The notes under the pieces were generated by a model, which searched no databases, was not told the DNA's origin, and saw only the letters and a program-made list of their open reading frames with translations. DNA of 64,000 nucleotides from Clostridiales bacterium. GTDB lineage: Bacteria; Bacillota; Clostridia; Christensenellales; Aristaeellaceae. Location of the stretch: contig SVHC01000001.1 in the NCBI GenBank assembly GCA_015056055.1, positions 119,157-183,156 of the forward strand. The letters run 5' to 3'. A program made the position numbers and the translations under genes. Shown here one piece after another: positions 21,538 through 59,733 of the stretch (position 1 is its first letter; each line of letters begins with the position of its first letter).

Positions 21538-22134
21538 ATGTTTTCTCATTTTGAAGGTGTGGTTGCGGAGAAGCAGCCGGGCAGTATTGTGGTGGATTGC
21601 GGCGGTGTAGGCTATCTTTTACAGGTAAGTCATACAACTCTTGCGGAGGCACCGGCCGTTGGCGAGCGTATGAAGCTATACGCTATATTATCGGTAAGGG
21701 AAGATGCGATGGAATTGTTCGGCTTCGCATCCAAAGAGGAAAGAACGATGTTTGAACGCCTGCGCGCCGTTTCGGGCGTGGGTCCCAAGATGGCGATGCA
21801 GGTTCTTTCCGCACTGCCGGTGCGCGATCTTTCCATTGCGCTCGCGGCGGGCGATGCCAATGCGCTTACGAAAGTGCCCGGAGTCGGCAAGAAAACCGCG
21901 CAGAGGCTGGTGCTTGAACTGCGCGATAAGGTGGATGAGAGCATGCTTACGGGTTCCGGTATCAAGCCTGCTCAGACCGCAACTCCCGTCGGCAATGCTG
22001 CAAGCGAGGCGATCGAGGCGCTTATGGCGCTGGGATATTCTTCGCAGGATGCCGCACAGATGGTTTCCCGCGTGGCGGATAAGAGCGACCGCGCGGATGA
22101 ACTTGTCAGGTTTGCACTCAGGTCGATGAGTTAG
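21538..22134 (+). CDS. ruvA: Holliday junction DNA helicase subunit RuvA
   Basis: A 198-residue protein that binds four-way junctions and loads the RuvB motor. It shows the N-terminal OB-fold (SIVVDCGGVGYLLQV), two helix-hairpin-helix motifs (AVSGVGPKMAM near 77-87 and KVPGVGKKTAQ near 112-122) and a C-terminal three-helix domain (ASEAIEALMALGYS). Normal length. Two ATGs lie close together (21534, 21538); only the second is in frame, with AGGAGG upstream. In most Firmicutes ruvB follows directly; here a 600-base repeat array follows instead and no ruvB lies in the window. Confidence 0.94.
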   Translation: MFSHFEGVVAEKQPGSIVVDCGGVGYLLQVSHTTLAEAPAVGERMKLYAILSVREDAMELFGFASKEERTMFERLRAVSGVGPKMAMQVLSALPVRDLSIALAAGDANALTKVPGVGKKTAQRLVLELRDKVDESMLTGSGIKPAQTATPVGNAASEAIEALMALGYSSQDAAQMVSRVADKSDRADELVRFALRSMS

Positions 22135-22140
22135 GGGATC

Positions 22141-22200
22141 TCTCCTTCCGTCAGCTTCGGCCTTCGGCCTTGCTGCCACCTTCCTCATCAGAGGAAGGCA
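22141..22200. repeat. Palindromic repeat family P, copy downstream of ruvA
   Basis: Family P has the form CTCCYTC-CGTCA, an internal GC hairpin, CCA, then CTTCCTC-atcag-GAGGAAG. This copy carries the internal GCCTTCGGC hairpin. Similar units occur at 22262, 25778, 34636, 38041, 45988, 52710, 54612 and 59385. Confidence 0.7.
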
Positions 22201-22261
22201 AACCGCAATCTCGGCTTTCCGTTTCTGCACGGGAAAGGTATTCCTGAGATTGTTGCACAGC

Positions 22262-22290
22262 CGGCCTCCATCTGATGAGGGAGGTAGGCA
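22262..22290. repeat. Half-unit of palindromic repeat P
   Basis: Contains GCCTCC-atctgatga-GGGAGG, the terminal hairpin of family P, without the first half. Confidence 0.5.
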
Positions 22291-22295
22291 GGTTA

Positions 22296-22664
22296 CAATG
22301 TGAAGTGCGAGGACAGGACGAAGTCCTCCGCAGCTGCGGAACACCGGGCATGCGAAGCATAGCACGGTGCGTCAAGGGAGCCCGAAGGGTGAAGTGCGAG
22401 GACAGGACGAAGTCCTCCGCAGCACGGAACACTGCGCCGCCGAAGGCGAGGGCAGTGCGAAACTGCGAAATGAATGGAGGGGCGAAGCCCTGGAGGGACG
22501 AGGACAACCCGAAGGGTTCTGTCGACCCGAGGTCGCGAAGCGACTGAAAGAGCGAGGACAATCCAAAGGATTCCGCAGCTCTGGAATACTGGCCCGCTGA
22601 AAGCGAGGTCAGTACGAGGAACCGGAACACTGCGCAAGCGAAGCGAAGGGCAGTGCGGAATTCT
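22296..22664 (+). repeat. Array of five three-hairpin repeats (family R)
   Basis: About 370 bases without a gene between ruvA and the pectate-lyase-like gene. Each complete R unit has hairpin 1 (CGCgaaGCG type), the phrase GAGGACA, hairpin 2 with a 3-base loop, the phrase CCGCAG, then GGAA and hairpin 3 (CACTG to CAGTG, with an inner gaa-loop hairpin). Hairpin 2 is at 22315-22327 and 22404-22416 (arms AGGAC/GTCCT), 22506-22518 (AACCC/GGGTT) and 22560-22572 (AATCC/GGATT). Hairpin 1 is GGGC/GCCC in one unit and GTCGC/GCGAC in another. The fifth unit keeps only hairpin 3. No protein-like frame is convincing. Confidence 0.8.
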
Positions 22665-22687
22665 TAATGAAAAATTACGCCTTCATA

Positions 22688-22696
22688 TGATATAAT
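22688..22696 (+). promoter_or_regulatory. Extended -10 promoter of the pectate-lyase-like gene
   Basis: TGA followed by a perfect TATAAT (22691-22696), 35 bases before the GTG start. No good -35 box. Confidence 0.6.
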
Positions 22697-22731
22697 AGAA
22701 GTGTATAACGATAAAACAAGGAGAGGTCAAA

Positions 22732-24405
22732 GTGACGAAACGCCTGCTTATATGTCTGCTGATTGTAGTAACGGTATTTTCCGGCGTTTTTGCGTCGGCG
22801 GAAACGTGGCGCAGCGAACTGTATCCTACTTACTGGGCATCCGGTTTGCAGGACAGTGTAGGCCGCTTTCTGCACGATTTTTCCTACGCGGGTTATAAAA
22901 CAGGCCTGACGGAACTGCCGGAAACGATCGAAGGCAAATATATCGACGTTACGCAGGAGCCGTACTTTGCCGATAACACGGGCACGCAGGACGCCACGGA
23001 CGCAATCCAGGCTGCTATCGATGCGGTGGGACAGGCAGGCGGCGGAACGGTATATATGCCCGCGGGTACCTATAAGCTTTCTCTGCGGGAAGAGCGCGAG
23101 TGCGCGCTGCTTGTGGGATACAGCAATGTACTCCTGAAGGGCGCGGGCGTGGGCGAAACAAAGCTGTACTGCGATACCTATAAAATGCGCGAGGTGCAGA
23201 TCATTGTCGTAGGGCAGCGCCGCGGCAGCTGGGACACGCCTGCGGACGGCACGGTTTATCCGTTTTCCAAGGATGTGCCTGAAACGCCGGTAAACAAGAT
23301 TTTTCTGCAGTCCGTTTCCGGGCTGAATGTGGGCGACTGGGTAGCCGTCACTTCGGACTGGACGGAAGCGTACATCAAGGAAATGGGCATGCAGAGCATG
23401 TGGGCCGAGTCCGATATTTACGGTCCTCGCATATACCGCAAAATTACGGCGGTTGATACGCAGAATGGCAGCGTAACGCTGGATGCGCCCACGCGCTGCG
23501 CCATGCTCATGCGCGACAATGCACGCCTTTATAAGATCAATCCCTCTGTGTCCGGCAGCGGTCTTGCGGATTTCTCCATCGGAAACCGCGAATATCCCAT
23601 CAAGTCCGCAGCAACAGACCTGGATGCCTATGCCTATCAGACGAAGGGCACCGCAGGCTACAACGTGCATGCGTCGGACGTGATCCGCTTCTCCCTGTGC
23701 GTGGATTCGTGGATGCAGAATGTTTCCACCTATCGTCCGGAGTGCAACGACAGGGATGTGCACATGCTGTCCAACGGTCTTGAGATCATGCACTGCCGCG
23801 GAATCACCGTCAGGAACTGTTCTTTCTCCAATGCGCAGTATCAGGGCGCGGGCGGCAACGGATACGGCTATATCATTTCTGCGGGCGATTGTCTGCTGGA
23901 TACCTGCTCGGCAATTTCCACCCGCCACGGTTTTTCCTTTAAATATGCCTGGTCGAACGGCAATGTTCTGTACAACTGCCTGTCGCGCGGCTCCTGGGGC
24001 GGCAGCGATTTCCACATGATGCTGAGCATGGCAAACCTTGTGGACAATCTGACGCTGGATAAGGATTTCATCGAGGCGGTCGTGCGTCCCTACGGCGGTG
24101 CAGCCGGACGCATCCACGGACATACCACCACGCAGACGGTGTTTTGGAACACGCACGGCGAGAGCTATTTTGACGGCAAGCGCTATATCATCGATTCCCG
24201 TCAGTACGGATGGGGCTATATCATCGGTACCGACGGGAAGGCAGACAAGGTAAACACGCTCCCCACCGCCGAAACGGAAGGCGGCTACGGCAAGGTGGAC
24301 ACTTCGCCCGAGGATCATGTGGAGGGCGTTGGCAAGGGCGATACGCTGGATCCGCAGTCCCTGTATCAGGATCAGCTTCGCCGCAGAAAATTTTCCGGAG
24401 GCTGA
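22732..24405 (+). CDS. Secreted pectate-lyase-superfamily (beta-helix) protein
   Basis: A 557-residue exported protein with a signal peptide (about 1-23) and a Pectate_lyase_3-type right-handed beta-helix. The domain opening DNTGTQDATDAIQAAIDAVGQAGGGTVYMPAGTY-type sequence, near residues 82-115, is diagnostic of this superfamily; later turns include GLEIMHCRGITVRNCSFSNA and SAISTRHGFSFK. It probably cleaves or binds a polysaccharide outside the cell; the family covers pectinases, epimerases and phage tail enzymes, so the substrate is open. The GTG start follows AAGGAGAGG. rarA begins three bases after its stop, so they share a transcript although their roles seem unrelated. Confidence 0.8.
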   Translation: MTKRLLICLLIVVTVFSGVFASAETWRSELYPTYWASGLQDSVGRFLHDFSYAGYKTGLTELPETIEGKYIDVTQEPYFADNTGTQDATDAIQAAIDAVGQAGGGTVYMPAGTYKLSLREERECALLVGYSNVLLKGAGVGETKLYCDTYKMREVQIIVVGQRRGSWDTPADGTVYPFSKDVPETPVNKIFLQSVSGLNVGDWVAVTSDWTEAYIKEMGMQSMWAESDIYGPRIYRKITAVDTQNGSVTLDAPTRCAMLMRDNARLYKINPSVSGSGLADFSIGNREYPIKSAATDLDAYAYQTKGTAGYNVHASDVIRFSLCVDSWMQNVSTYRPECNDRDVHMLSNGLEIMHCRGITVRNCSFSNAQYQGAGGNGYGYIISAGDCLLDTCSAISTRHGFSFKYAWSNGNVLYNCLSRGSWGGSDFHMMLSMANLVDNLTLDKDFIEAVVRPYGGAAGRIHGHTTTQTVFWNTHGESYFDGKRYIIDSRQYGWGYIIGTDGKADKVNTLPTAETEGGYGKVDTSPEDHVEGVGKGDTLDPQSLYQDQLRRRKFSGG

Positions 24406-37906: not shown

Positions 37907-38011
37907 GACGAACGAAGCGCGCGCCCAGTGGGCGAAACAGCGCGAAGTAAGTCCAATGAGCAAAGGAATACGGCAAGCATAGCGCTGACGGATGACTATT
38001 GCGAATTGAGG
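37907..38011 (+). repeat. 105-bp structured repeat Q, copy 1
   Basis: Copies of Q lie at 37907-38011, 46047-46152 and 52841-52946. They share GTAAGYCCAATGAGCAA and end in ATTGCGAATTGAGG. Near the start each has an outer stem and an inner AGT-loop hairpin: here CGCGC with GCGCG around GCCC-agt-GGGC. In the 46-kb copy the same places read GGCC with GGCC around CGCC-agt-GGCG, so the pairing is kept with different bases. No gene lies in 37783-38352. Confidence 0.75.
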
Positions 38012-38040
38012 GGTGCTGGCATTAAGGCCAAGCCGAAGGT

Positions 38041-38170
38041 CTCTCCCTCAGTCATCATCGCACTGTTCCGCGCTGCGCTTGAACAGTGTTTCGCCCTTGC
38101 GGAGTACTACGTACTGTCCTCAGGGCTTCAGCCTACGGCCTTGATGCCAGCCCCTCGTCAGATGGAGGCT
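38041..38170 (-). repeat. Family R unit nested inside a family P repeat
   Basis: The ends read CTCCCTCAGTCATC and CCCCTCGTCAGATGGAGG, the two halves of a P repeat. Between them, on the minus strand, is a complete R unit: hairpin 1 GCC-gta-GGC, GAGGACA, hairpin 2 AGTAC-gta-GTACT (38103-38115), CCGCA, and hairpin 3 CACTGTTC to GAACAGTG. The remaining bases up to 38330 show a half P-like ATGAGG end but no gene. Confidence 0.75.
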
Positions 38171-38352
38171 TTCCGGATAGCAGCTTTCGGTAGTTTCATC
38201 AGACGGAATTTCAATAGCTGCATCTGAGATAAGGGGCACGGCGAAGCCGTGACTGATGAGGTGTTCTGCGAAACTCAAAGCCCGGGAACCTTTTTTCCCT
38301 CTTACACGCCGAAAGAACAGAATAACACACGTTGATATAAGGAGATAAAACA

Positions 38353-45784: not shown

Positions 45785-45975
45785 AGTCATCTTCGCACTG
45801 CCTTACACTTCGTAAGGCAGTGTTCCGCCGCTTCGCATTGCCTTACACTTCGTGTGGCAATGTTCCACTCCTGCGGAGGGCTGAGCCCTGTCCTCGGAGT
45901 TTCAGCTTCGCTTCGCTCAGCCTCCGGTGACGGAGTGCTGCGCTCTGTCCTCACCGCTCCAGCCGCTTCGCGGCC
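45785..45975 (-). repeat. Family R repeats upstream of the GH3 gene
   Basis: On the minus strand, in order: hairpin 1 GCCGC-gaa-GCGGC, GAGGACA with hairpin 2 AGAGC-gca-GCACT (45946-45934, one mismatch), then GAGGACA with AGGGC-tca-GCCCT (45889-45877) and CCGCAG, then hairpin 3 CATTGC to GCAATG, and a second hairpin 3 CACTGC to GCAGTG. Part of the 519-base gene-free gap 45718-46236. Confidence 0.75.
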
Positions 45976-45987
45976 TACGTGAAGCGC

Positions 45988-46046: not shown

Positions 46047-46152
46047 GGGCGCACGCAGGCCGCCGCCAGTGGCGGAAACAGGCCGTAGTAAGCCCAATGA
46101 GCAAGGGAATACGCCAAACATAGTGATGGCGGATGACCATTGCGAATTGAGG
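46047..46152 (+). repeat. Structured repeat Q, copy 3 (diverged)
   Basis: It aligns end to end with the copies at 37907 and 52841 and keeps GTAAGCCCAATGAGCAA and ATTGCGAATTGAGG. The 5' stem is rewritten to GGCC/GGCC around CGCC-agt-GGCG. It lies antisense to the flanking minus-strand genes. Confidence 0.7.
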
Positions 46153-46185
46153 ACAGGGGGACCGCTTTAGCGGTGGAGGGATTCC

Positions 46186-46236: not shown

Positions 46237-48471
46237 TTAGTCCTCAATGGGCAGGTCGCCGAAGTAGAACAGCTTGGTTTCGCCGCTCTTCATATCGAAG
46301 GAGAACTCGTTTACATTGTCAGCGATTGCTTCGCCGGAGAAGGCGTCAACAACGTTGGCGGTACGCGGCAGGGTGATGGTCTTCTTGCCGGTGCGGACGG
46401 TGTGCAGCATGACATAGTCGTGACCTGCATAGATAACGTCCTCATCGTTGTTGTAGATATGAACGCCTGCTTCGCGAGCCATTTCGCGCAGGATGCAAGC
46501 GGGTACCAGCGGAGCCACGGAGTAAGCGTAGGTGTAATTCTCGCGGCGTGCGATGGCGAAGCCGGTTTCGAAGCGGCCCTGCTGAGCAACGCTGGTGGCG
46601 AGCGGTACGGCATCGGTGCCCTTGGTATCAATTGCGAAGATCGGGCCGAGCTGCATGTCGGTGCCCCAGAACATGCTGGTGGGGGTGGCCTTCATGATCG
46701 GGTCTTCGAAATTGGTGGGCATGATGTTCACGCTCCAGCGGCGCGGGCGCAGGATAACGTTCATGCCGGTCAGCTTGGAAACGTTTTCAACGTCCAGAGT
46801 CTCGTCGGAAGCATAGCCCGGAGCGTAGATGAACAGGGTCATCTTGTTGTCGCGCTCGAGGATGCCCTTGAGCTTCGCGCGGTTCTCATCGGACAGGTGG
46901 AAGGTGTTGAGCATGTAGTACATCTTGTACTCCTTGGCGCGGCCTTCCAGAATGTCAGAGAGCATTACGAAGTCAACCGGTGCGCCCATGCGAGCCATAG
47001 CCCAGCCGCGTGCACGCCAGTTGGGGATATCGATGTTGTTCAGCGTGGAGCGATAGAAGGAGCTCTCTGCATCGATAACGATGGCGATTTCGGCAGCGGT
47101 TTCGCGATGGGGCATCTTGATGTTGTGCTGGCCGAGCTTGACCATGCGCTCAAAGAGCTTCATGGTGTTGGGCTCGTCGTAGCTGCCCATGGTGGGCTTG
47201 CACCAGTCGCACCACCATGCGGAGCTCTGGTGAATCAGGATGTTGGAGAACTGGCGCTTGAGCAGGTTGAGCTGCTCTTCCAGATCGTTGGGCTGGCCGT
47301 AACCGGAATCGGGATCCCAGTTGAGGGAGCGGAAGTCTTCTTCGGACATCCAGAGCTTGCCTGCGATGCGGACGGACTCATACGGGGACATGAAGCCGCC
47401 TTCGCCGCCGGTGCCGCGGAAGCCGTAGCCGTACGGGCTGCAGAAGAAGTCAACATCCGGGGAAGCCAGAACCTCTGCAAAGCCGGCATGACCGGAGCGT
47501 GCTGCTGCGGAGTGCTCGGTATCGCAGGTCAGATCGCCCTGACCGAAGAAACCGTCGTTCCAAACCATTTCCTGCAGGTAGCCGTAGAATACGCCGGCCA
47601 GCCAGCTGCGGTTGGAAACTTCCTTGACAGCGCCGGAGAGCTTGCAGATGTCATAGGCAACGCGGTGTGCCAGATATTCATAATGATCGATGGAATCGCG
47701 ATGACGAACCGGGTGCTTGAACAGGAACAGCTCGGTTGCGTTCTGTGCTTCGGGAGAGGGAACCAGATCATCCTCGAGGGAAACGTCGTCCTTGCCCCAT
47801 GCTGCGCGCAGAGCTTCGTCCGTGCCGTACTTTTCCTTCAGCCAGTTGCGGAAACCGATCTGCATGGGCTCGGAATAGTCGCTGGCCCAGTCCTCCATGG
47901 GACCGGACTTAACCCATTCGCAGCTGTTGCCGCCGCCGATGAGGAAGCCCAGAACGTTGTCGCCCAGGCCGCGTGCGATCAGCTCTTCACCGAAGCGCTT
48001 GATGTAGCGGCAGGCGTCGTTCAGCCACAGGTCGGAAGCGTAGGAGGGGTTTTCGTAGTTGTGGGACTGCCACTTTTCTTCCATCAGCTCCATCTGCTCG
48101 GGATGCATCTGCAGCCACTTGGAATTCTTGCCGCGGGGCTCGGGCATGATGCGCAGAAGAACCTTGATGCCGGGGCAGCGGCGTGCGTACTCGGCCAGGA
48201 CTTCGCAGCTGTAATCATAGCCTTCGGACGGGAAGGAATCGGTCTCCGGATCATAGCAGCGATCGAAGCCGCCGATGTCGCCTTCTACCTGAATCTGGAA
48301 CAGGCGGAAGCCTGCGCGGTAGAAATCTTCAAAATACGGGTCCGGACGCCAGTCCTTGTTGCCCGTGTTGTGGGGGTTCTTGTTGGTGGTCAGCATCGGG
48401 GCGAAAACCGGTTCGCCGTTGATGTGCAGGGTGGGGGCGCCATTGTGCAGGCGAATATCACATACATCCAT
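46237..48471 (-). CDS. GH42-like clan GH-A glycosidase (putative beta-galactosidase superfamily)
   Basis: A 744-residue cytoplasmic protein with the layout of beta-galactosidase-superfamily enzymes: a TIM barrel (about 20-420), an alpha/beta trimerisation-like domain (about 440-620, with ETAAEIAIVIDAES and GWAMARMGAPVDFVMLSDIL) and a small beta domain. Candidate acid/base is the Glu of GGGNSCEW (about 185) and candidate nucleophile a Glu in WMSEEDF (about 380). It is far from classical GH42 in sequence, so the exact family and sugar are uncertain. The start follows AAGGGAGTG. The next gene upstream on this strand is an RpiB-like isomerase, which suggests a pentose or galactoside pathway. Confidence 0.7.
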   Translation of the reverse strand: MDVCDIRLHNGAPTLHINGEPVFAPMLTTNKNPHNTGNKDWRPDPYFEDFYRAGFRLFQIQVEGDIGGFDRCYDPETDSFPSEGYDYSCEVLAEYARRCPGIKVLLRIMPEPRGKNSKWLQMHPEQMELMEEKWQSHNYENPSYASDLWLNDACRYIKRFGEELIARGLGDNVLGFLIGGGNSCEWVKSGPMEDWASDYSEPMQIGFRNWLKEKYGTDEALRAAWGKDDVSLEDDLVPSPEAQNATELFLFKHPVRHRDSIDHYEYLAHRVAYDICKLSGAVKEVSNRSWLAGVFYGYLQEMVWNDGFFGQGDLTCDTEHSAAARSGHAGFAEVLASPDVDFFCSPYGYGFRGTGGEGGFMSPYESVRIAGKLWMSEEDFRSLNWDPDSGYGQPNDLEEQLNLLKRQFSNILIHQSSAWWCDWCKPTMGSYDEPNTMKLFERMVKLGQHNIKMPHRETAAEIAIVIDAESSFYRSTLNNIDIPNWRARGWAMARMGAPVDFVMLSDILEGRAKEYKMYYMLNTFHLSDENRAKLKGILERDNKMTLFIYAPGYASDETLDVENVSKLTGMNVILRPRRWSVNIMPTNFEDPIMKATPTSMFWGTDMQLGPIFAIDTKGTDAVPLATSVAQQGRFETGFAIARRENYTYAYSVAPLVPACILREMAREAGVHIYNNDEDVIYAGHDYVMLHTVRTGKKTITLPRTANVVDAFSGEAIADNVNEFSFDMKSGETKLFYFGDLPIED

Positions 48472-49476: not shown

Positions 49477-49672
49477 TTCGCACTGTGCTATGCTGCGCAT
49501 GCCCAGTGTTCCGGGATTGCGGAGCACTTCGCGCTGTCCTCATCCCTTCAGCCGCTTCGCGGCCTCCGAGTTCGCACTGTGCTATGCTGCGCATGCCCAG
49601 TGTTCCGGGATTGCGGAGCACTTCGCGCTGTCCTCATCCCTTCAGTCGCTTCGCGACCTCGCCTGCGTGTGC
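49477..49672 (-). repeat. Tandem pair of 94-bp family R repeats
   Basis: Two head-to-tail copies with a 94-base period (49477 and 49571). On the minus strand each has hairpin 1, GAGGACA, hairpin 2 AGCGC-gaa-GTGCT (one G-T pair), CCGCA and hairpin 3 CACTG to CAGTG with inner ATGC-gca-GCAT. The copies are nearly identical, but hairpin 1 reads GCCGC/GCGGC in one (49551-49563) and GTCGC/GCGAC in the other (49645-49657), a paired change. The gap 49333-49834 holds no gene. Confidence 0.8.
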
Positions 49673-55240: not shown

Positions 55241-57532
55241 ATGTTCACTCAATACGAAGGCAAATGGAATGAAGAAATAAACGTATGCGGAATTCCGTTC
55301 AAGGTGTTCCGGAATAAAGAAACCGAACTGATTGACATGATCGAGATGCCGAACCATCACGGTTCGGAGATTCCTTTTACCGGCAAGTGCGAGGCGCTGT
55401 TTTTCCTGGGCATGTCGGTCACGCAGTGGTACTGCAGCGACTGGTGGGGCAAGAAGGAAGTGGAGTACAACCATTCCGAGCGCGTATTTGTGGGCAGCCG
55501 CATGGCGCACGGCAAGGTGGTTTACACCGACAACAGCGAGGACTATTTTGAACTGATCTTCGGCGTGAACTGCTGGAGCTACAAGCTTTTCTGCAAACCG
55601 AACGAAAAGGAAAAATGGCCCTGGGGCGCGCCGTATGACGAGCCGTTCAAAAGCGACCCGGCGGCAAAGGCTCTGCTTGATGCTTCCCTCAAGCTGATGG
55701 AGAACCCCTCCGATGATTATGAAATGGGAAATAAGTGGATATTCGGCCTGCGCACGAACCCCAAAAAGACTGTGCACCATCTGAAATTCTGCCATTTCAA
55801 GATCAAGAACGAGCGCATCTTCATCTCCGGCATCACGGGCGTGAACGCCGGTGAAACGCTTGACCCCGCATGGAAAACCATGTGCCAGCAGGATTTTATC
55901 TCCCGCAGCTGGTTTAATGATGCCGACCGCCTGATGCATCGCCTGTACACCTTCGCCGACTGCATCCCGGACAGGGTGCCGCTTGAGGAAATCGAGGACT
56001 TCGATGCGCCGGACATCCGCTTTGCCGGTTCCTCTTCCGCGTCCATCTATACGAATGTTTACCGCAAGAACATCATGGACATGGCGAAGAACAAAATCAG
56101 CGAGGACGGCTCAATGCACACTTCCTCGCTGAATACATACAACTTTGGCGATTATTACGGCATGGGCACCTTCAAGGCCGCCGAAAGCTACTATTATGAG
56201 CTGGTTTCCCGCGACGTGGGACGCACGCTCACCGAGCTTGTCAACGTGGGCTACACAGATCGGCAGAAGAAGTCCATGGAGCTGCTGGAAAAATATCTGT
56301 ATGAGTATCTTGGCGATACATGCCCCGTTCCGCACTGGAGGCGCGTTGCCAACCGCAAACCGAACGAGTACGGCATGGGCGTAGGCGAGGATGCATGGGA
56401 AAACGACGGTCACGGCTCGCTGATGATGTTCATCTACTCCATGTACAACAAGGGCGTGCTCGGCGTGGATTGGATCAACGAGCACAAAAAGATGCTCATC
56501 GACGCGGGCGAGTACGTCATGTGGCAGCTGGAAAACCCCGAAAAGTCGCACTATGACAAGGTGCTGTATTCCTATTCCGAAGCCAGCGACATGTGCTACG
56601 GCGGATATGATCTGTTCTCGAACATCCTCGTTGCAGCCGGGCTTGACGGCTTTGCGCGCATGATGGATGCGGCGGGCGACAGGGACATTGCCGAGCGCTT
56701 CAAAAAGGGCAGCGAGATGATCCGCCTGGGCGTTGATCAGGTGTTCACCATGAAGCATCCCCGATACGGTGAGATCTTCGTCGATGCGTTCAACGGCCTG
56801 TGGACGTACGATTACAAGCGCTTCTGCGATACCTTCATGCACAGCGACCTCGACGGCTACGATATGGCTAGCGATAAGCCGCAGCTGTATGAAAAGCTCG
56901 TGCGCACCTTTGAAGCGCAGGTGGACGAGGGCTATTACAATCCCTTCTCCGGCGGTCAGATGGGCTACGGTCAGGGCTATCTCACGGTCGCTGCCATCAT
57001 GCTCGACCGCTATGACGAATTCACCGACTGCATGGACGCCATCGCCGGCGAGTGCTACCACGCATACGATCACAACTATATCGTGCCCGAGGGCGTGATC
57101 CATCACGGCTCCGGCCGTTACTGGTTCCGCCAGCACGATCTGGGCAACGGCGTGCAGCAGGCCGAAACCGTCAAGTGCACGCGTTTGCTTCTGGGCATCG
57201 ACGATGTGAACTATAAGCGCGGTATCCGCCTGATTCCCAGATTGCCCCTGAACTGGTCTTCCATGGATGCAAAGGATTTCCCCGTGCGCACCGTGGACGG
57301 CGTGAAGAAGATTGCTTTCCGTTATGAGCGCGTCACCGAGCTGCCCGACTACTGCACCGTGTTCGCATGCGATGAGTCCGACGCCTATGCAGCTACCTGG
57401 TCCGAGGATATGGATGTGTCCTACATCCGCATGGGCCCCTTCGCAACCGAGGACGTGGAAGTCACCGGCGGCACCATCCAGAAGGTCGAAAAGCTGGGCG
57501 ACTGGTGGTTTGCACAAATTGTCCCTTGCTGA
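55241..57532 (+). CDS. Putative alpha/alpha-toroid glycosidase, family not recognised
   Basis: A 763-residue cytoplasmic protein. The first 260 residues look beta-rich; from about 270 to 660 the sequence has the helical-pair rhythm and aromatic/acidic patches of six-hairpin glycosidases (NDGHGSLMMFIYSMYNKGV, FNGLWTYDYKRF, YNPFSGGQMGYGQGYL, HHGSGRYWFRQHDLGNGVQQ). The last 100 residues are a beta domain with RLIPRLPLNW and GPFATEDVEVTGG, shared with the next gene. Glu or Asp residues in these patches are candidate catalysts. Substrate unknown. The ribosome site is GGAGG. It has its own promoter, facing away from the replication module. Confidence 0.65.
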   Translation: MFTQYEGKWNEEINVCGIPFKVFRNKETELIDMIEMPNHHGSEIPFTGKCEALFFLGMSVTQWYCSDWWGKKEVEYNHSERVFVGSRMAHGKVVYTDNSEDYFELIFGVNCWSYKLFCKPNEKEKWPWGAPYDEPFKSDPAAKALLDASLKLMENPSDDYEMGNKWIFGLRTNPKKTVHHLKFCHFKIKNERIFISGITGVNAGETLDPAWKTMCQQDFISRSWFNDADRLMHRLYTFADCIPDRVPLEEIEDFDAPDIRFAGSSSASIYTNVYRKNIMDMAKNKISEDGSMHTSSLNTYNFGDYYGMGTFKAAESYYYELVSRDVGRTLTELVNVGYTDRQKKSMELLEKYLYEYLGDTCPVPHWRRVANRKPNEYGMGVGEDAWENDGHGSLMMFIYSMYNKGVLGVDWINEHKKMLIDAGEYVMWQLENPEKSHYDKVLYSYSEASDMCYGGYDLFSNILVAAGLDGFARMMDAAGDRDIAERFKKGSEMIRLGVDQVFTMKHPRYGEIFVDAFNGLWTYDYKRFCDTFMHSDLDGYDMASDKPQLYEKLVRTFEAQVDEGYYNPFSGGQMGYGQGYLTVAAIMLDRYDEFTDCMDAIAGECYHAYDHNYIVPEGVIHHGSGRYWFRQHDLGNGVQQAETVKCTRLLLGIDDVNYKRGIRLIPRLPLNWSSMDAKDFPVRTVDGVKKIAFRYERVTELPDYCTVFACDESDAYAATWSEDMDVSYIRMGPFATEDVEVTGGTIQKVEKLGDWWFAQIVPC

Positions 57533-57544
57533 TAAATGGCGTGT

Positions 57545-57765
57545 CGCCACTGCGCAAGCGAAGCGTAGGGCAGTGCGTTAAGGGAGGCCGCGAAGCGGCT
57601 GGAGGGATGAGGACAGCGCAAAGCGCTCCGCATCCGAAGGCTGAGCGAAGCGAAGCTGGAACTCCAAGGACAGCCCAAAGGGCTCCGCAGGAGTGGAACA
57701 TTGCCTCACGAAGTGAAGGGCAATGCGAAGTGACGGAACATTGCGCAAGCAAAGCGTAGGGCAAT
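57545..57765 (+). repeat. Family R repeats between the two toroid-glycosidase genes
   Basis: Order: a lone hairpin 3 (CACTGC/GCAGTG), hairpin 1 GCCGC-gaa-GCGGC, GAGGACA with hairpin 2 AGCGC-aaa-GCGCT (57615-57627), then AGGACA with AGCCC-aaa-GGGCT (57673-57685), CCGCAG, hairpin 3 CATTGC/GCAATG with inner CAC-gaa-GTG, and another CATTGC/GCAATG unit. Confidence 0.78.
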
Positions 57766-57789: not shown

Positions 57790-59349
57790 ATGTCTGGCAA
57801 AATCAAATTTTATGGCGCGAAGAACGCCGAACTGTTCACGAAGGAACTGGATCATTCCCTGAAAGGTGCCATCGAGCATCTGATGGACATGGACCCGGCA
57901 AGCCCGTCTTACGGCTTTGCGCAGGCTTCCTTTGACGGCCGTCCCTGGACGGATACCATGTGGACGCGCGATGCGGGCGTTATGTTGCGCGAATTGTCCT
58001 GCTACGGCATGATGGACGAGGCACGCGCGCTGGCAAATTCCCTGATCAATCTGGTTCAGGAAAACGAAAAGGGATTCTTCACATTCCCGGAACGCTTTGA
58101 GCGCAATAAGCCTGATTTCGGCCATGAGCTGGATGGAACCGCCTCCATCGTTATCGGCATGGTATTCCTGCTGCGCCGCCTGGATGCACAGGACGAAACC
58201 AAAAAGCGCGTGGAAGAATTCCTCTGGGGCGAAAAGTCCCCGCTTAAGTATGCGCAGAGCGTGCTCTCCGAATCCCCGCTGCTCTCCGGCGACGGCGAAT
58301 TCGGCGGCGGCTGCGGAATTCAGGGCCGTTATGTGAACGTGGTTCAGAATGCTCTGGTTCGCGCCATGCTGATTGCAAGCGCACAGTACGCCCGTGAAAC
58401 CGGCCGCGATGCAAGCGTGCTGGAAGAAACCGCCCAGCGCATCCGCGAAGGCATTGAGAAGTATCTCGTAAACGAAAACGGCGCATGGATCTGGTGCGTA
58501 TCGCCCGATACCATGCAGCCCGACCCGGCCATCATCAATCACGAAATCAACAAGGGCTTCGGCGGCCTGAACGACGTGCTTGCCCTCACCAGCGAGATCG
58601 AAGGCGTTCTCGCCAAGGATGATAAAATGGTCCAGCACGGCCGCGCCATGCTGGACGAACTGTATTCTTTCCCGCGCCGCAAGCAGCTGTTCGACAGCGA
58701 AGGCCTGTGGATCCAGTTCGACGAGTACCAGAAGGGCAGCCTTACCTCCTTCTCTTACGGTCAGTGCTACGCCGTGCAGGCTATGGCCATGGCGGACCGA
58801 ATCGAATGGTTCTCCAGGGGCCTGAACTACCTTGCAGAGGCAGCTTTCTATAACAATACGCCCGTTGTCCGCAAGGATCCCTATTGGTTCTTTGAGCGCG
58901 TTTTCGCAGGCGACCGTATCGCACAGATTGATACGTGGGAAGGCTGCGGCGCACTGAATCTGGTCAATATGGCAGAGCCGCTCAAGGTTGCACGCCTTGC
59001 CGCCGGTATCGATTGCACCAGCAAGGATGCTATCGTGATCGCTCCCAGACTCCCGATCAACTGGAGCGGCGTAGCTGTGGAAAATTGGGTGCTGCCGAAT
59101 AAGGACAGCCTGGTGCCCGTTTCCATGCGCTATGAAAAGGTGGCTCCCGGCGCATGCACCTGCTCCGCACGCATGACCGCTAAGGCAGGCGAGGAAGGCT
59201 ACGCACTCTACTGGGATTGCGCAAAGAAGGCAGACGTCGTTCGCTTCGGTCCGTTTGCTTCCAAGGATATCGAAGTCACCGGCGGTAAGATCACCTCTGT
59301 TTATCAGTCTGAAGATGGCTTCTGGTTCGCAGAAACCGAAATGGAATAA
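57790..59349 (+). CDS. Putative six-hairpin glycosidase, paralogous C-terminus with the preceding gene
   Basis: A 519-residue cytoplasmic protein, mostly an alpha/alpha-toroid: DGRPWTDTMWTRDAGVMLRELS near residue 50, GFFTFPERFE and GHELDGTASIVIGM (about 95-120), NHEINKGFGGLNDVLAL (about 235-252), WIQFDEYQKGSLTSFSYGQCYA and FAGDRIAQIDTWEGCGALN. Such D/E-rich signatures fit GH63/GH78-like enzymes, but no family is assigned with confidence. The last 110 residues repeat the beta domain of the gene before it (RLPINWSG, RFGPFASKDIEVTGG). The start follows AAAGGAG. Probably expressed with its neighbour, through the R array. Confidence 0.65.
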   Translation: MSGKIKFYGAKNAELFTKELDHSLKGAIEHLMDMDPASPSYGFAQASFDGRPWTDTMWTRDAGVMLRELSCYGMMDEARALANSLINLVQENEKGFFTFPERFERNKPDFGHELDGTASIVIGMVFLLRRLDAQDETKKRVEEFLWGEKSPLKYAQSVLSESPLLSGDGEFGGGCGIQGRYVNVVQNALVRAMLIASAQYARETGRDASVLEETAQRIREGIEKYLVNENGAWIWCVSPDTMQPDPAIINHEINKGFGGLNDVLALTSEIEGVLAKDDKMVQHGRAMLDELYSFPRRKQLFDSEGLWIQFDEYQKGSLTSFSYGQCYAVQAMAMADRIEWFSRGLNYLAEAAFYNNTPVVRKDPYWFFERVFAGDRIAQIDTWEGCGALNLVNMAEPLKVARLAAGIDCTSKDAIVIAPRLPINWSGVAVENWVLPNKDSLVPVSMRYEKVAPGACTCSARMTAKAGEEGYALYWDCAKKADVVRFGPFASKDIEVTGGKITSVYQSEDGFWFAETEME

Positions 59350-59384: not shown

Positions 59385-59448
59385 TCTCCCTCAGTCATCT
59401 TCAGCCTTCGGCTTCCGATGACAGCTCCCTCGTCAGAGGGAGCCTTTT
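59385..59448. repeat. Palindromic repeat family P
   Basis: CTCCCTCAGTCATC, a GCCTTCGGC hairpin, GATGACAGCTCCCTC-gtcag-AGGGAGCC followed by TTTTCT. The end would also work as a terminator. Confidence 0.7.
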
Positions 59449-59527
59449 CTGTATAGCGACGTTCAGACATTTTCGAAGAAACTGAGGGAGAGATACCCTT
59501 CTCCCGCGAAGCACACGGCACTGCGGG

Positions 59528-59733
59528 GCAAGTTAGAGGAGGCCGCGAAGCGGCTGTAGGAGCGAGGACAACCCGCAGGGTTCCGCAGTTCCGAAACACT
59601 GCGCAAGCGGAGCGAAGAGCAGTGCGGAGCAAGTTAGAGGAGGCCGCGAAGCGGCTGTAGGAGCGAGGACAACCCGCAGGGTTCCGCAGTTCCGAAACAC
59701 TGCGCAAGCGGAGCGAAGAGCAGTGCGGAGCAA
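59528..59733 (+). repeat. Perfect 101-bp tandem pair of family R repeats before secA
   Basis: Two identical copies with a 101-base period (59531 and 59632). Each has hairpin 1 GCCGC-gaa-GCGGC, GAGGACA, hairpin 2 AACCC-gca-GGGTT (59570-59582 and 59671-59683), CCGCAG and hairpin 3 CACTGC/GCAGTG. The array ends four bases before the -35 box of secA. No gene is seen in 59350-59798. Confidence 0.85.

Follow-up and report, generated by a model that had tools for sequence, protein, structure and literature searches.

The gap at 22296 to 22664 of the window, by which we mean the whole 64-kb stretch of DNA that was analysed, is occupied by an array of units of a repeat that we call R and lies between one gene encoding a RuvA C-terminal domain and another that matches the pectate-lyase-like family PF12708. 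Further units reside in other gaps of the window, each with a core in which a hairpin follows the letters GAGGAC or a close variant. The features are as follows.

22296..22664, plus strand: R units arrayed within the gap described above
22304..22340, plus strand: R core with mostly unpaired outer arms (AGTGC/GCTGC); 41.8 bits
22392..22429, plus strand: R core, outer arms GTGC/GCAC, inner hairpin AGGAC-GAA-GTCCT; 56.9 bits
22494..22531, plus strand: degenerate R core in which CTGTC replaces CCGCA; 20.0 bits
22548..22585, plus strand: R core, outer arms AGAGC/GCTCT, inner hairpin AATCC-AAA-GGATT; 55.0 bits; predicted DNA fold with three hairpins
38090..38127, minus strand: R core, outer arms GCCCT/AGGGC, inner hairpin AGTAC-GTA-GTACT; in a divergent gap
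45864..45901, minus strand: R core, outer arms ACTCC/GGAGT, inner hairpin AGGGC-TCA-GCCCT
45924..45980, minus strand: R unit in which CCGTC replaces CCGCA, running into the next hairpin 1
49510..49547, minus strand: R core, second member of a near-identical tandem pair
49604..49641, minus strand: R core, first tandem unit of the near-identical pair; one compensated pair of hairpin 1 differs
57603..57638, plus strand: fused R core without full outer 3' arm
57660..57697, plus strand: R core with the AAGGAC variant, outer arms ACTCC/GGAGT
59558..59595, plus strand: R core, outer arms GGAGC/GTTCC with one G-T
59659..59696, plus strand: R core, tandem copy identical to the core at 59558, period 101

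An earlier note on this DNA had counted 13 copies with such a hairpin, built from eight different inner arms, ten pairing perfectly, two with one G-T pair and one with a mismatch, and our recount agrees with both the arms and the tally. The note had placed the hairpin directly behind GAGGACA; the hairpin is present, but the last A of this phrase already belongs to the 5-base arm, as its first letter, so that the boundary was off by one. The copies carry GAGGAC in 12 of the 13 cases and AAGGAC in the remaining one. The window contains GAGGACA 24 times as compared to 5.6 expected, the highest count in 100 shuffles being 11. Since the cores at 59.56 and 59.66 kb are identical, and the units at 49.54 and 49.63 kb differ within the unit by a single hairpin 1 base pair (T-A/C-G), the copies of the window are less independent than they appear.

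Several other features adjoin the R units. At E 1e-5, Pfam had no match for three large predicted proteins of 744, 763 and 519 aa (46240-48471, 55241-57529 and 57790-59346). A different kind of palindromic repeat between genes, the CTC(C)CTC(A/G)TCAGAGGGAGCC type, is located next to R at 22138-22200, 38150-38270 and 59420-59450, and a second repeat family, CAATGAGCAA.GGAATACG...GAC(C/T)ATTGCGAATTGAGG, at 37950-38012 and 46090-46155; a likeness of the latter family follows R in another genome, G047 (L230, L231).

Architecture of the R unit

Alignment of the R units yields a general form of the core, A-N5-GA-(inner helix)-GCA-N5'-GNA. The long form builds this helix from GG/CC, a bulge of two bases and a hairpin of 5 bp, while in the short form it is GGAC/GTCC or, with both sides changed, GCAC/GTGC, closed by a loop of the ACGNA type; written out, the short form reads N5-GA-GCAC-ACGNA-GTGC-GCA-N5'. 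The short forms with GCAC/GTGC thus indicate that GG/CC can be exchanged for other pairs and that the GA/GCA loop is constant. In the energy model the G of this loop pairs with the C of GCA, accompanied by an A.G mismatch and a bulged A; it might be guessed that sheared G.A pairs are formed. A second helix is made by outer 5-bp arms which flank GAGGAC...CCGCA and change in pairs, as in GCCCT/AGGGC, ACTCC/GGAGT, GGGAT/ATCCC and AGAGC/GCTCT of the window. This outer helix is perfect in six of the 13 window copies, has one G-T in two, pairs at four of five positions in three and is mostly unpaired in the other two.

The complete unit measures about 85-100 bp, and each of its hairpins tends toward the frame A-helix-(C/T)GNA. 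Of 99 units, 94 have an A before the core and 96 have GNA behind it, figures which are partly expected as the letters of the core frame belong to the search model. Hairpin 1 (4-7 bp, 5' of the core) was found in 74 of the 99 units as compared to 21% in block-shuffled controls; 72 of the 74 have an A in front of them and 64 are closed at the foot by G.T. Similarly, hairpin 3, located 3' of the core, was found in 81 of the 99 units (28% in block-shuffled controls), with CGNA behind it in 49 of these 81; the bases 3' of it are mostly CGNN and not the T run of an intrinsic terminator. The loops of R are mainly GNA or AAA triloops. Among 68 long-form middle hairpins read by script, 56 have a triloop of any kind, 36 a GNA triloop and three a GNRA tetraloop, and hairpin 1 (n=74) has 45 GNA triloops and two GNRA tetraloops. 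Hairpins of the d(C-GNA-G) kind are of unusual stability in DNA.

A number of units depart from this plan. Four fused units of the genome of origin are devoid of the outer 3' arm. A variant middle hairpin, GTGGCGGCA...TGCCGCCAC, is without the GA/GCA loop and retains the neighbouring hairpins 1 and 3, with a shorter hairpin 1 in L093; it is set in a larger block, for example flanked by CCGACGGATTCC and GGAATTCGTCGG, and was seen at L091 9558, L093 9287, L096 8476, L097 8387, L099 5856, L100 7860 and 8358, and L104 34. Tandem arrays of five short-form units each are present at L098 8052-8446, with a spacing of 84 bp, and at L103 7457-7902, with a spacing of 91 bp and once 114.

Covariation, drift and the folded strand

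In alignment A1, with 27 of 34 units from the genome of origin and a genus mate, 95.2% of the cells in the two helices are standard pairs, a percentage on the high side because of the seven units omitted, namely a chance match in coding sequence, two near-duplicates and four fused units that have no outer arm on the 3' side. Eight of ten pairs have changed on both sides, and covariation amounts to 0.798 as compared to 0.229 in shuffled and at most 0.152 in slid alignments. Alignment A2, with 31 rows from seven genera (the own genus, g14, g18, g42, g47, g48 and g56), gave 0.893 versus 0.231 when shuffled; it consists of 30 of 45 pre-filtered units and one added row, and since the filter demanded at least 4/5 outer pairs, its outer pairing percentage is partly a matter of construction while the variety of pair types is unaffected. 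The covariance model that the earlier note had called for was built and run on the genome and its relatives, and it returned R copies from several genera with stems that covary. Among 87 distinct cores found with the model, one weak chance match included, 782 of 800 gap-free cells hold standard pairs; G-T occupies 22 cells and A-C mismatches six, or 12 and six as distinct events, and as copies within a genome are related, such counts overstate the number of independent events.

Comparison of near-identical unit pairs, which are not mutually independent, revealed 12 one-sided changes at paired sites (four to G-T, two to A-C and six to other mismatches) versus four compensated ones; the fixed hairpin-1 layout used here misfits some units, and seven one-sided changes lie where neither unit pairs. 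The excess of one-sided over compensated changes indicates that young R copies drift. The units L198 and L207 of G056, compared over hairpin 1 and the core, differ by one whole compensated pair only, and differences of this kind can reflect either selection or arm-to-arm copying. The statement of the earlier note that folding and not sequence is selected stands as far as the structure is kept across genera, with one helix more than had been noted, whereas for the stems selection has to be weighed against arm-to-arm copying. Selection on the unpaired invariant letters of R is likely.

With DNA parameters, 58 of 62 units have the lower energy on the GAGGAC strand, and with RNA parameters 47 of 62 do. 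The outer helix is part of the minimum-energy fold of this strand in 51 (DNA) and 53 (RNA) of the 62 units, as compared to 36 (DNA) and 40 (RNA) for the opposite strand. As the fold of this strand is about equally frequent with either parameter set, energy names the strand and not the molecule, and the models support the GAGGAC strand as the one that would fold. Two stretches of the window folded as DNA gave three hairpins each; the complement of the first retained hairpin 1 alone, and the same 91 bases as RNA took a different minimum-energy fold, with the three-hairpin form in the centroid. The earlier note had argued for RNA from the position of the GAGGACA strand as the sense strand. This holds for all four co-directional gaps of the window (22.3, 45.8, 57.6 and 59.6 kb; the remaining gaps with R, at 38.1 and 49.6 kb, are divergent), but over the genome of origin six gaps are sense and seven antisense, and the co-directional gaps of eight genomes are divided into 19 and 19, which takes the ground from the argument. 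G-T pairs, in addition, form in DNA as well.

Distribution, genomic context and candidate enzymes

A strict pattern matched 27 times in the genome of origin and never when reversed. The covariance model, with 150 of 940 candidates scored, gave at least 51 matches there at E<=1e-4, distributed over 9 of 80 contigs, and at least 60 at E<=1. The units are clustered in this genome (G000, contigs C8, C65 and C70), with six of 21 classed clusters inside the 64-kb window, that is, 2% of the genome. At the family level R was found in 10 of 101 genomes. At the order level nine of 396 genomes matched, eight of them genuinely and in two families; the match in G291 (L118) was rejected as a chance hit with misfitting arms that reads as coding sequence. 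The family and order searches combined place R in nine genera, and in a class sample the genome of origin was the sole carrier among 391 genomes; as the order and class searches scored 17 candidates per genome under stricter filters, their copy numbers are lower bounds and weak carriers were possibly missed. Within the genera g14 and g47 the presence of R is patchy. The strict pattern, run over a collection of 84,980 species, matched 20 stretches, all titled as Clostridia MAGs and including Candidatus Alectryocaccomicrobium excrementavium, Candidatus Faecaligallichristensenella faecipullorum and Christensenella sp. UBA1428; NCBI assigns both Candidatus genera to Clostridia incertae sedis. Judging from names and kinship classes, R thus appears in the genome searches to be confined, patchily, to a single order, Christensenellales. 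None of 4227 Rfam families reached its gathering score in the window, or E values up to 5 at 22100-22760, and no description of R was found among the papers listed by full-text searches of a literature that lies mostly outside subscription journals.

R was also identified in a 45-kb viral contig (L170 1290-1403), between minor-tail and virion structural genes, which makes this contig a possible vehicle for R between hosts. The viral pattern matches L170 and L171 are cores with one outer mismatch, that of L171 being located at the contig end. A third match, L232, was discarded as chance since its arms do not pair; further viral pattern scans gave no match to R, and neither did blastn of 22296-22664 against phage and plasmid collections.

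Based on gene calls from a small codon-usage script, the 87 clusters of eight genomes comprise 19 sense, 19 antisense, 17 convergent, five divergent and one mixed; two lie in predicted genes (one weak chance match, one doubtful ORF), and 24 at contig edges are unclassed. A position at contig edges, as is seen with high-copy repeats, is a point for a mobile repeat. Convergent gaps account for 17 of 62 gaps with R and for 43 of 469 others (odds ratio 3.7, p 1.3e-4, raw and with gap lengths as found). The orientation of R is related neither to GC skew (44 vs 40) nor to the local gene majority (48 vs 36).

R is also present between gyrB and gyrA. At 29 of 31 loci, the best 30 of a 61-genome search plus G274, this gap was measured, and in 26 it spans -29 to 172 bp. 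In two lineages the gap contains R, in opposite orientation, and measures 706 and 369 bp. What is inserted there is a larger mosaic block with R as one part, and some R units elsewhere lie within larger palindromic blocks as well; no base-exact empty site and no target duplication, which together with terminal inverted repeats would mark a MITE, could be made out for R. One further gyrB-gyrA gap, in G076, consists of 670 bp of other palindromes without R, filled with blocks similar to the CTC(C)CTC(A/G)TCAGAGGGAGCC type of the window. A 16-bp direct repeat flanks an R unit on both sides in L101. In several genera a palindrome of the form ATGAAGGGGC...GCCCCTTCATGCATCCCC appears repeatedly close to R (L192, L215-L217, L227, L229 and L067), and in G263 an R unit sits inside such a palindrome.

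The check proposed by the earlier note for a mobile-DNA model, a search for a Y1 transposase, was negative: there was no match in the genome of origin (95% complete) and no link to R in the relatives. Y1_Tnp, with a profile that matched five of 14 known genomes as a control, was present in 4 of 13 R-bearing and 5 of 11 R-free genomes (R-free meaning no match in the family and order searches), and absent from nine of the 13 carriers, including G042, which is assembled in three contigs. A Y1 transposase showing no association with R was accordingly rejected as its mobiliser. The Y2_Tnp profile of the IS91 type matched none of 12 genomes, the control genomes being equally without a match. Clustering of 611 predicted proteins from the fetched stretches revealed no R-associated family among the 25 largest groups; the largest group has 18 proteins, four of them within 1.5 kb of R.

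Interpretation and comparison with known repeats

Taken together, we consider it probable, on balance, that R belongs among the non-autonomous, REP/BOX-like mobile repeats of DNA and that its identity lies in the fold of one strand. Insertion is well supported, as neutral orientation, scarcity in divergent gaps, insertion into a tight operon gap, occurrence on a phage contig and patchiness are traits of mobile elements. Since joints and triloops are retained while stems are free, the site is likely to be read as a folded strand. We infer that DNA rather than RNA is the acting molecule and that R would be recognised by a putative enzyme acting in trans, for which the transposase searches and the protein clustering yielded no candidate. 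The GAGGAC strand would probably fold when R DNA becomes single-stranded, as in lagging-strand synthesis or repair, or when it is extruded by supercoiling; the enzyme would then recognise the hairpin feet and the unpaired letters, and the unit would be copied or moved into intergenic DNA, where recombination could produce tandem arrays and hairpin swaps, the letters of the stems being free provided that pairing holds. A more far-reaching version is put forward tentatively: R might be a mobile element that inherits its identity as a single-stranded DNA shape, a hairpin chain with G.A-type joints, moved by an enzyme class other than Y1, with stems that can turn over completely while the element remains recognisable across genera and travels in phages.

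Of the alternatives, a role of R as RNA, in which structures transcribed from across the genome would bind protein or serve in mRNA processing (as a stabiliser, an attenuator or a target of RNase), appears unlikely. The four sense gaps of the window, the outer helix in the RNA minimum-energy fold of 53 of 62 units and the excess of G-T over A-C mismatches (22 vs 6 cells, 12 vs 6 events) would suit such a role; yet sense and antisense are balanced over eight genomes, triloops are common and GNRA tetraloops few, there is no Rfam match, presence is patchy among sister species, and G-T pairs are possible in DNA too. The REP-like single-strand DNA role that the earlier note had named as a rival fits R better than its RNA argument, even though the Y1 test proposed for that role was negative.

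It is quite unlikely, in our judgement, that the paired changes of the stems are mutational and arise in inert repeat DNA by copying from arm to arm, through template switching or quasipalindrome correction. Such copying cannot explain the near-fixed unpaired letters (GA/GCA, A...GNA and CCGCA) across genera in which both stems have turned over, and it is at odds with the energetic strand asymmetry of 58 in 62 units, although it would agree with outer and inner arms that recombine as blocks (ACTCC occurs with four different inner arms) and with two near-identical unit pairs, 49.5/49.6 and G056 L198/L207, that differ by a whole compensated pair only. Highly improbable is a REP moved by a Y1 transposase, of the RAYT/TnpA-REP or IS200/IS605 kind, which is now lost or hidden in an assembly gap. 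R shares with such elements a hairpin with conserved foot letters and an intergenic, mosaic and tandem occurrence, and Y1 genes exist in some R-bearing and R-free relatives, but nine of 13 carriers are devoid of Y1_Tnp, the share of genomes with it (4/13) is no higher than among R-free ones (5/11), and GT[AG]G is absent from the hairpin feet of the listed units.

If the mobile-DNA reading is true, R represents a natural collection of folded DNA with most stem positions varied and joints held, recognition of a single-stranded DNA shape becomes testable with simple binding and cleavage assays, and R would hint that Christensenellales possess a mobilising enzyme yet to be described. Strong covariation would then be no proof that a repeat between genes acts as RNA.

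Among known systems, REP, BIME and REPIN sequences are short intergenic palindromes of species-specific sequence and shared structure which form clusters and mosaics and for which recognition as single-stranded DNA is proposed, according to passages of PMC6006769; the same passages define REP/RAYT by the tetranucleotide GT[AG]G, placed 0-2 nt before the foot of the hairpin on its 5' side. R is similarly intergenic and multicopy and keeps its structure while its sequence differs between species. In contrast to REP, it has three hairpins and not one, an internal GA/GCA loop and no link to Y1, and, by eye in the listed units, an A and not GTAG or GTGG directly at the foot. Lacking the foot tetranucleotide and the Y1 association, R is not filed as REP. 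The BOX, RUP and SPRITE repeats of streptococci are modular, tandem, fold-rich and enriched in convergent gaps and are judged to be mobile parasites, the convergent excess being taken as a sign of this, in the parts of PMC3049150 that deal with these pneumococcal repeats. R shares all of these structural traits and the enrichment in convergent gaps. However, it differs in host order and sequence, its stems turn over between genera, and a leading-strand bias such as the 61-63% given there for BOX, RUP and SPRITE is not seen for R by GC skew (44 vs 40).

The promoter of the N4 virion RNA polymerase, as outlined in part of PMC4496689, is a small DNA hairpin that extrudes at physiological supercoiling and in which the contact bases are conserved while other stem bases matter for pairing alone. 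This is a one-hairpin phage promoter, whereas R is a dispersed chain of three hairpins with no polymerase implied. Finally, the 92 stem-loop-containing sequence families of PMC2267715, whose genome table names no Christensenellales in the part examined, are presented as repeated intergenic families with a common predicted secondary structure, and it is to this general class that R belongs.
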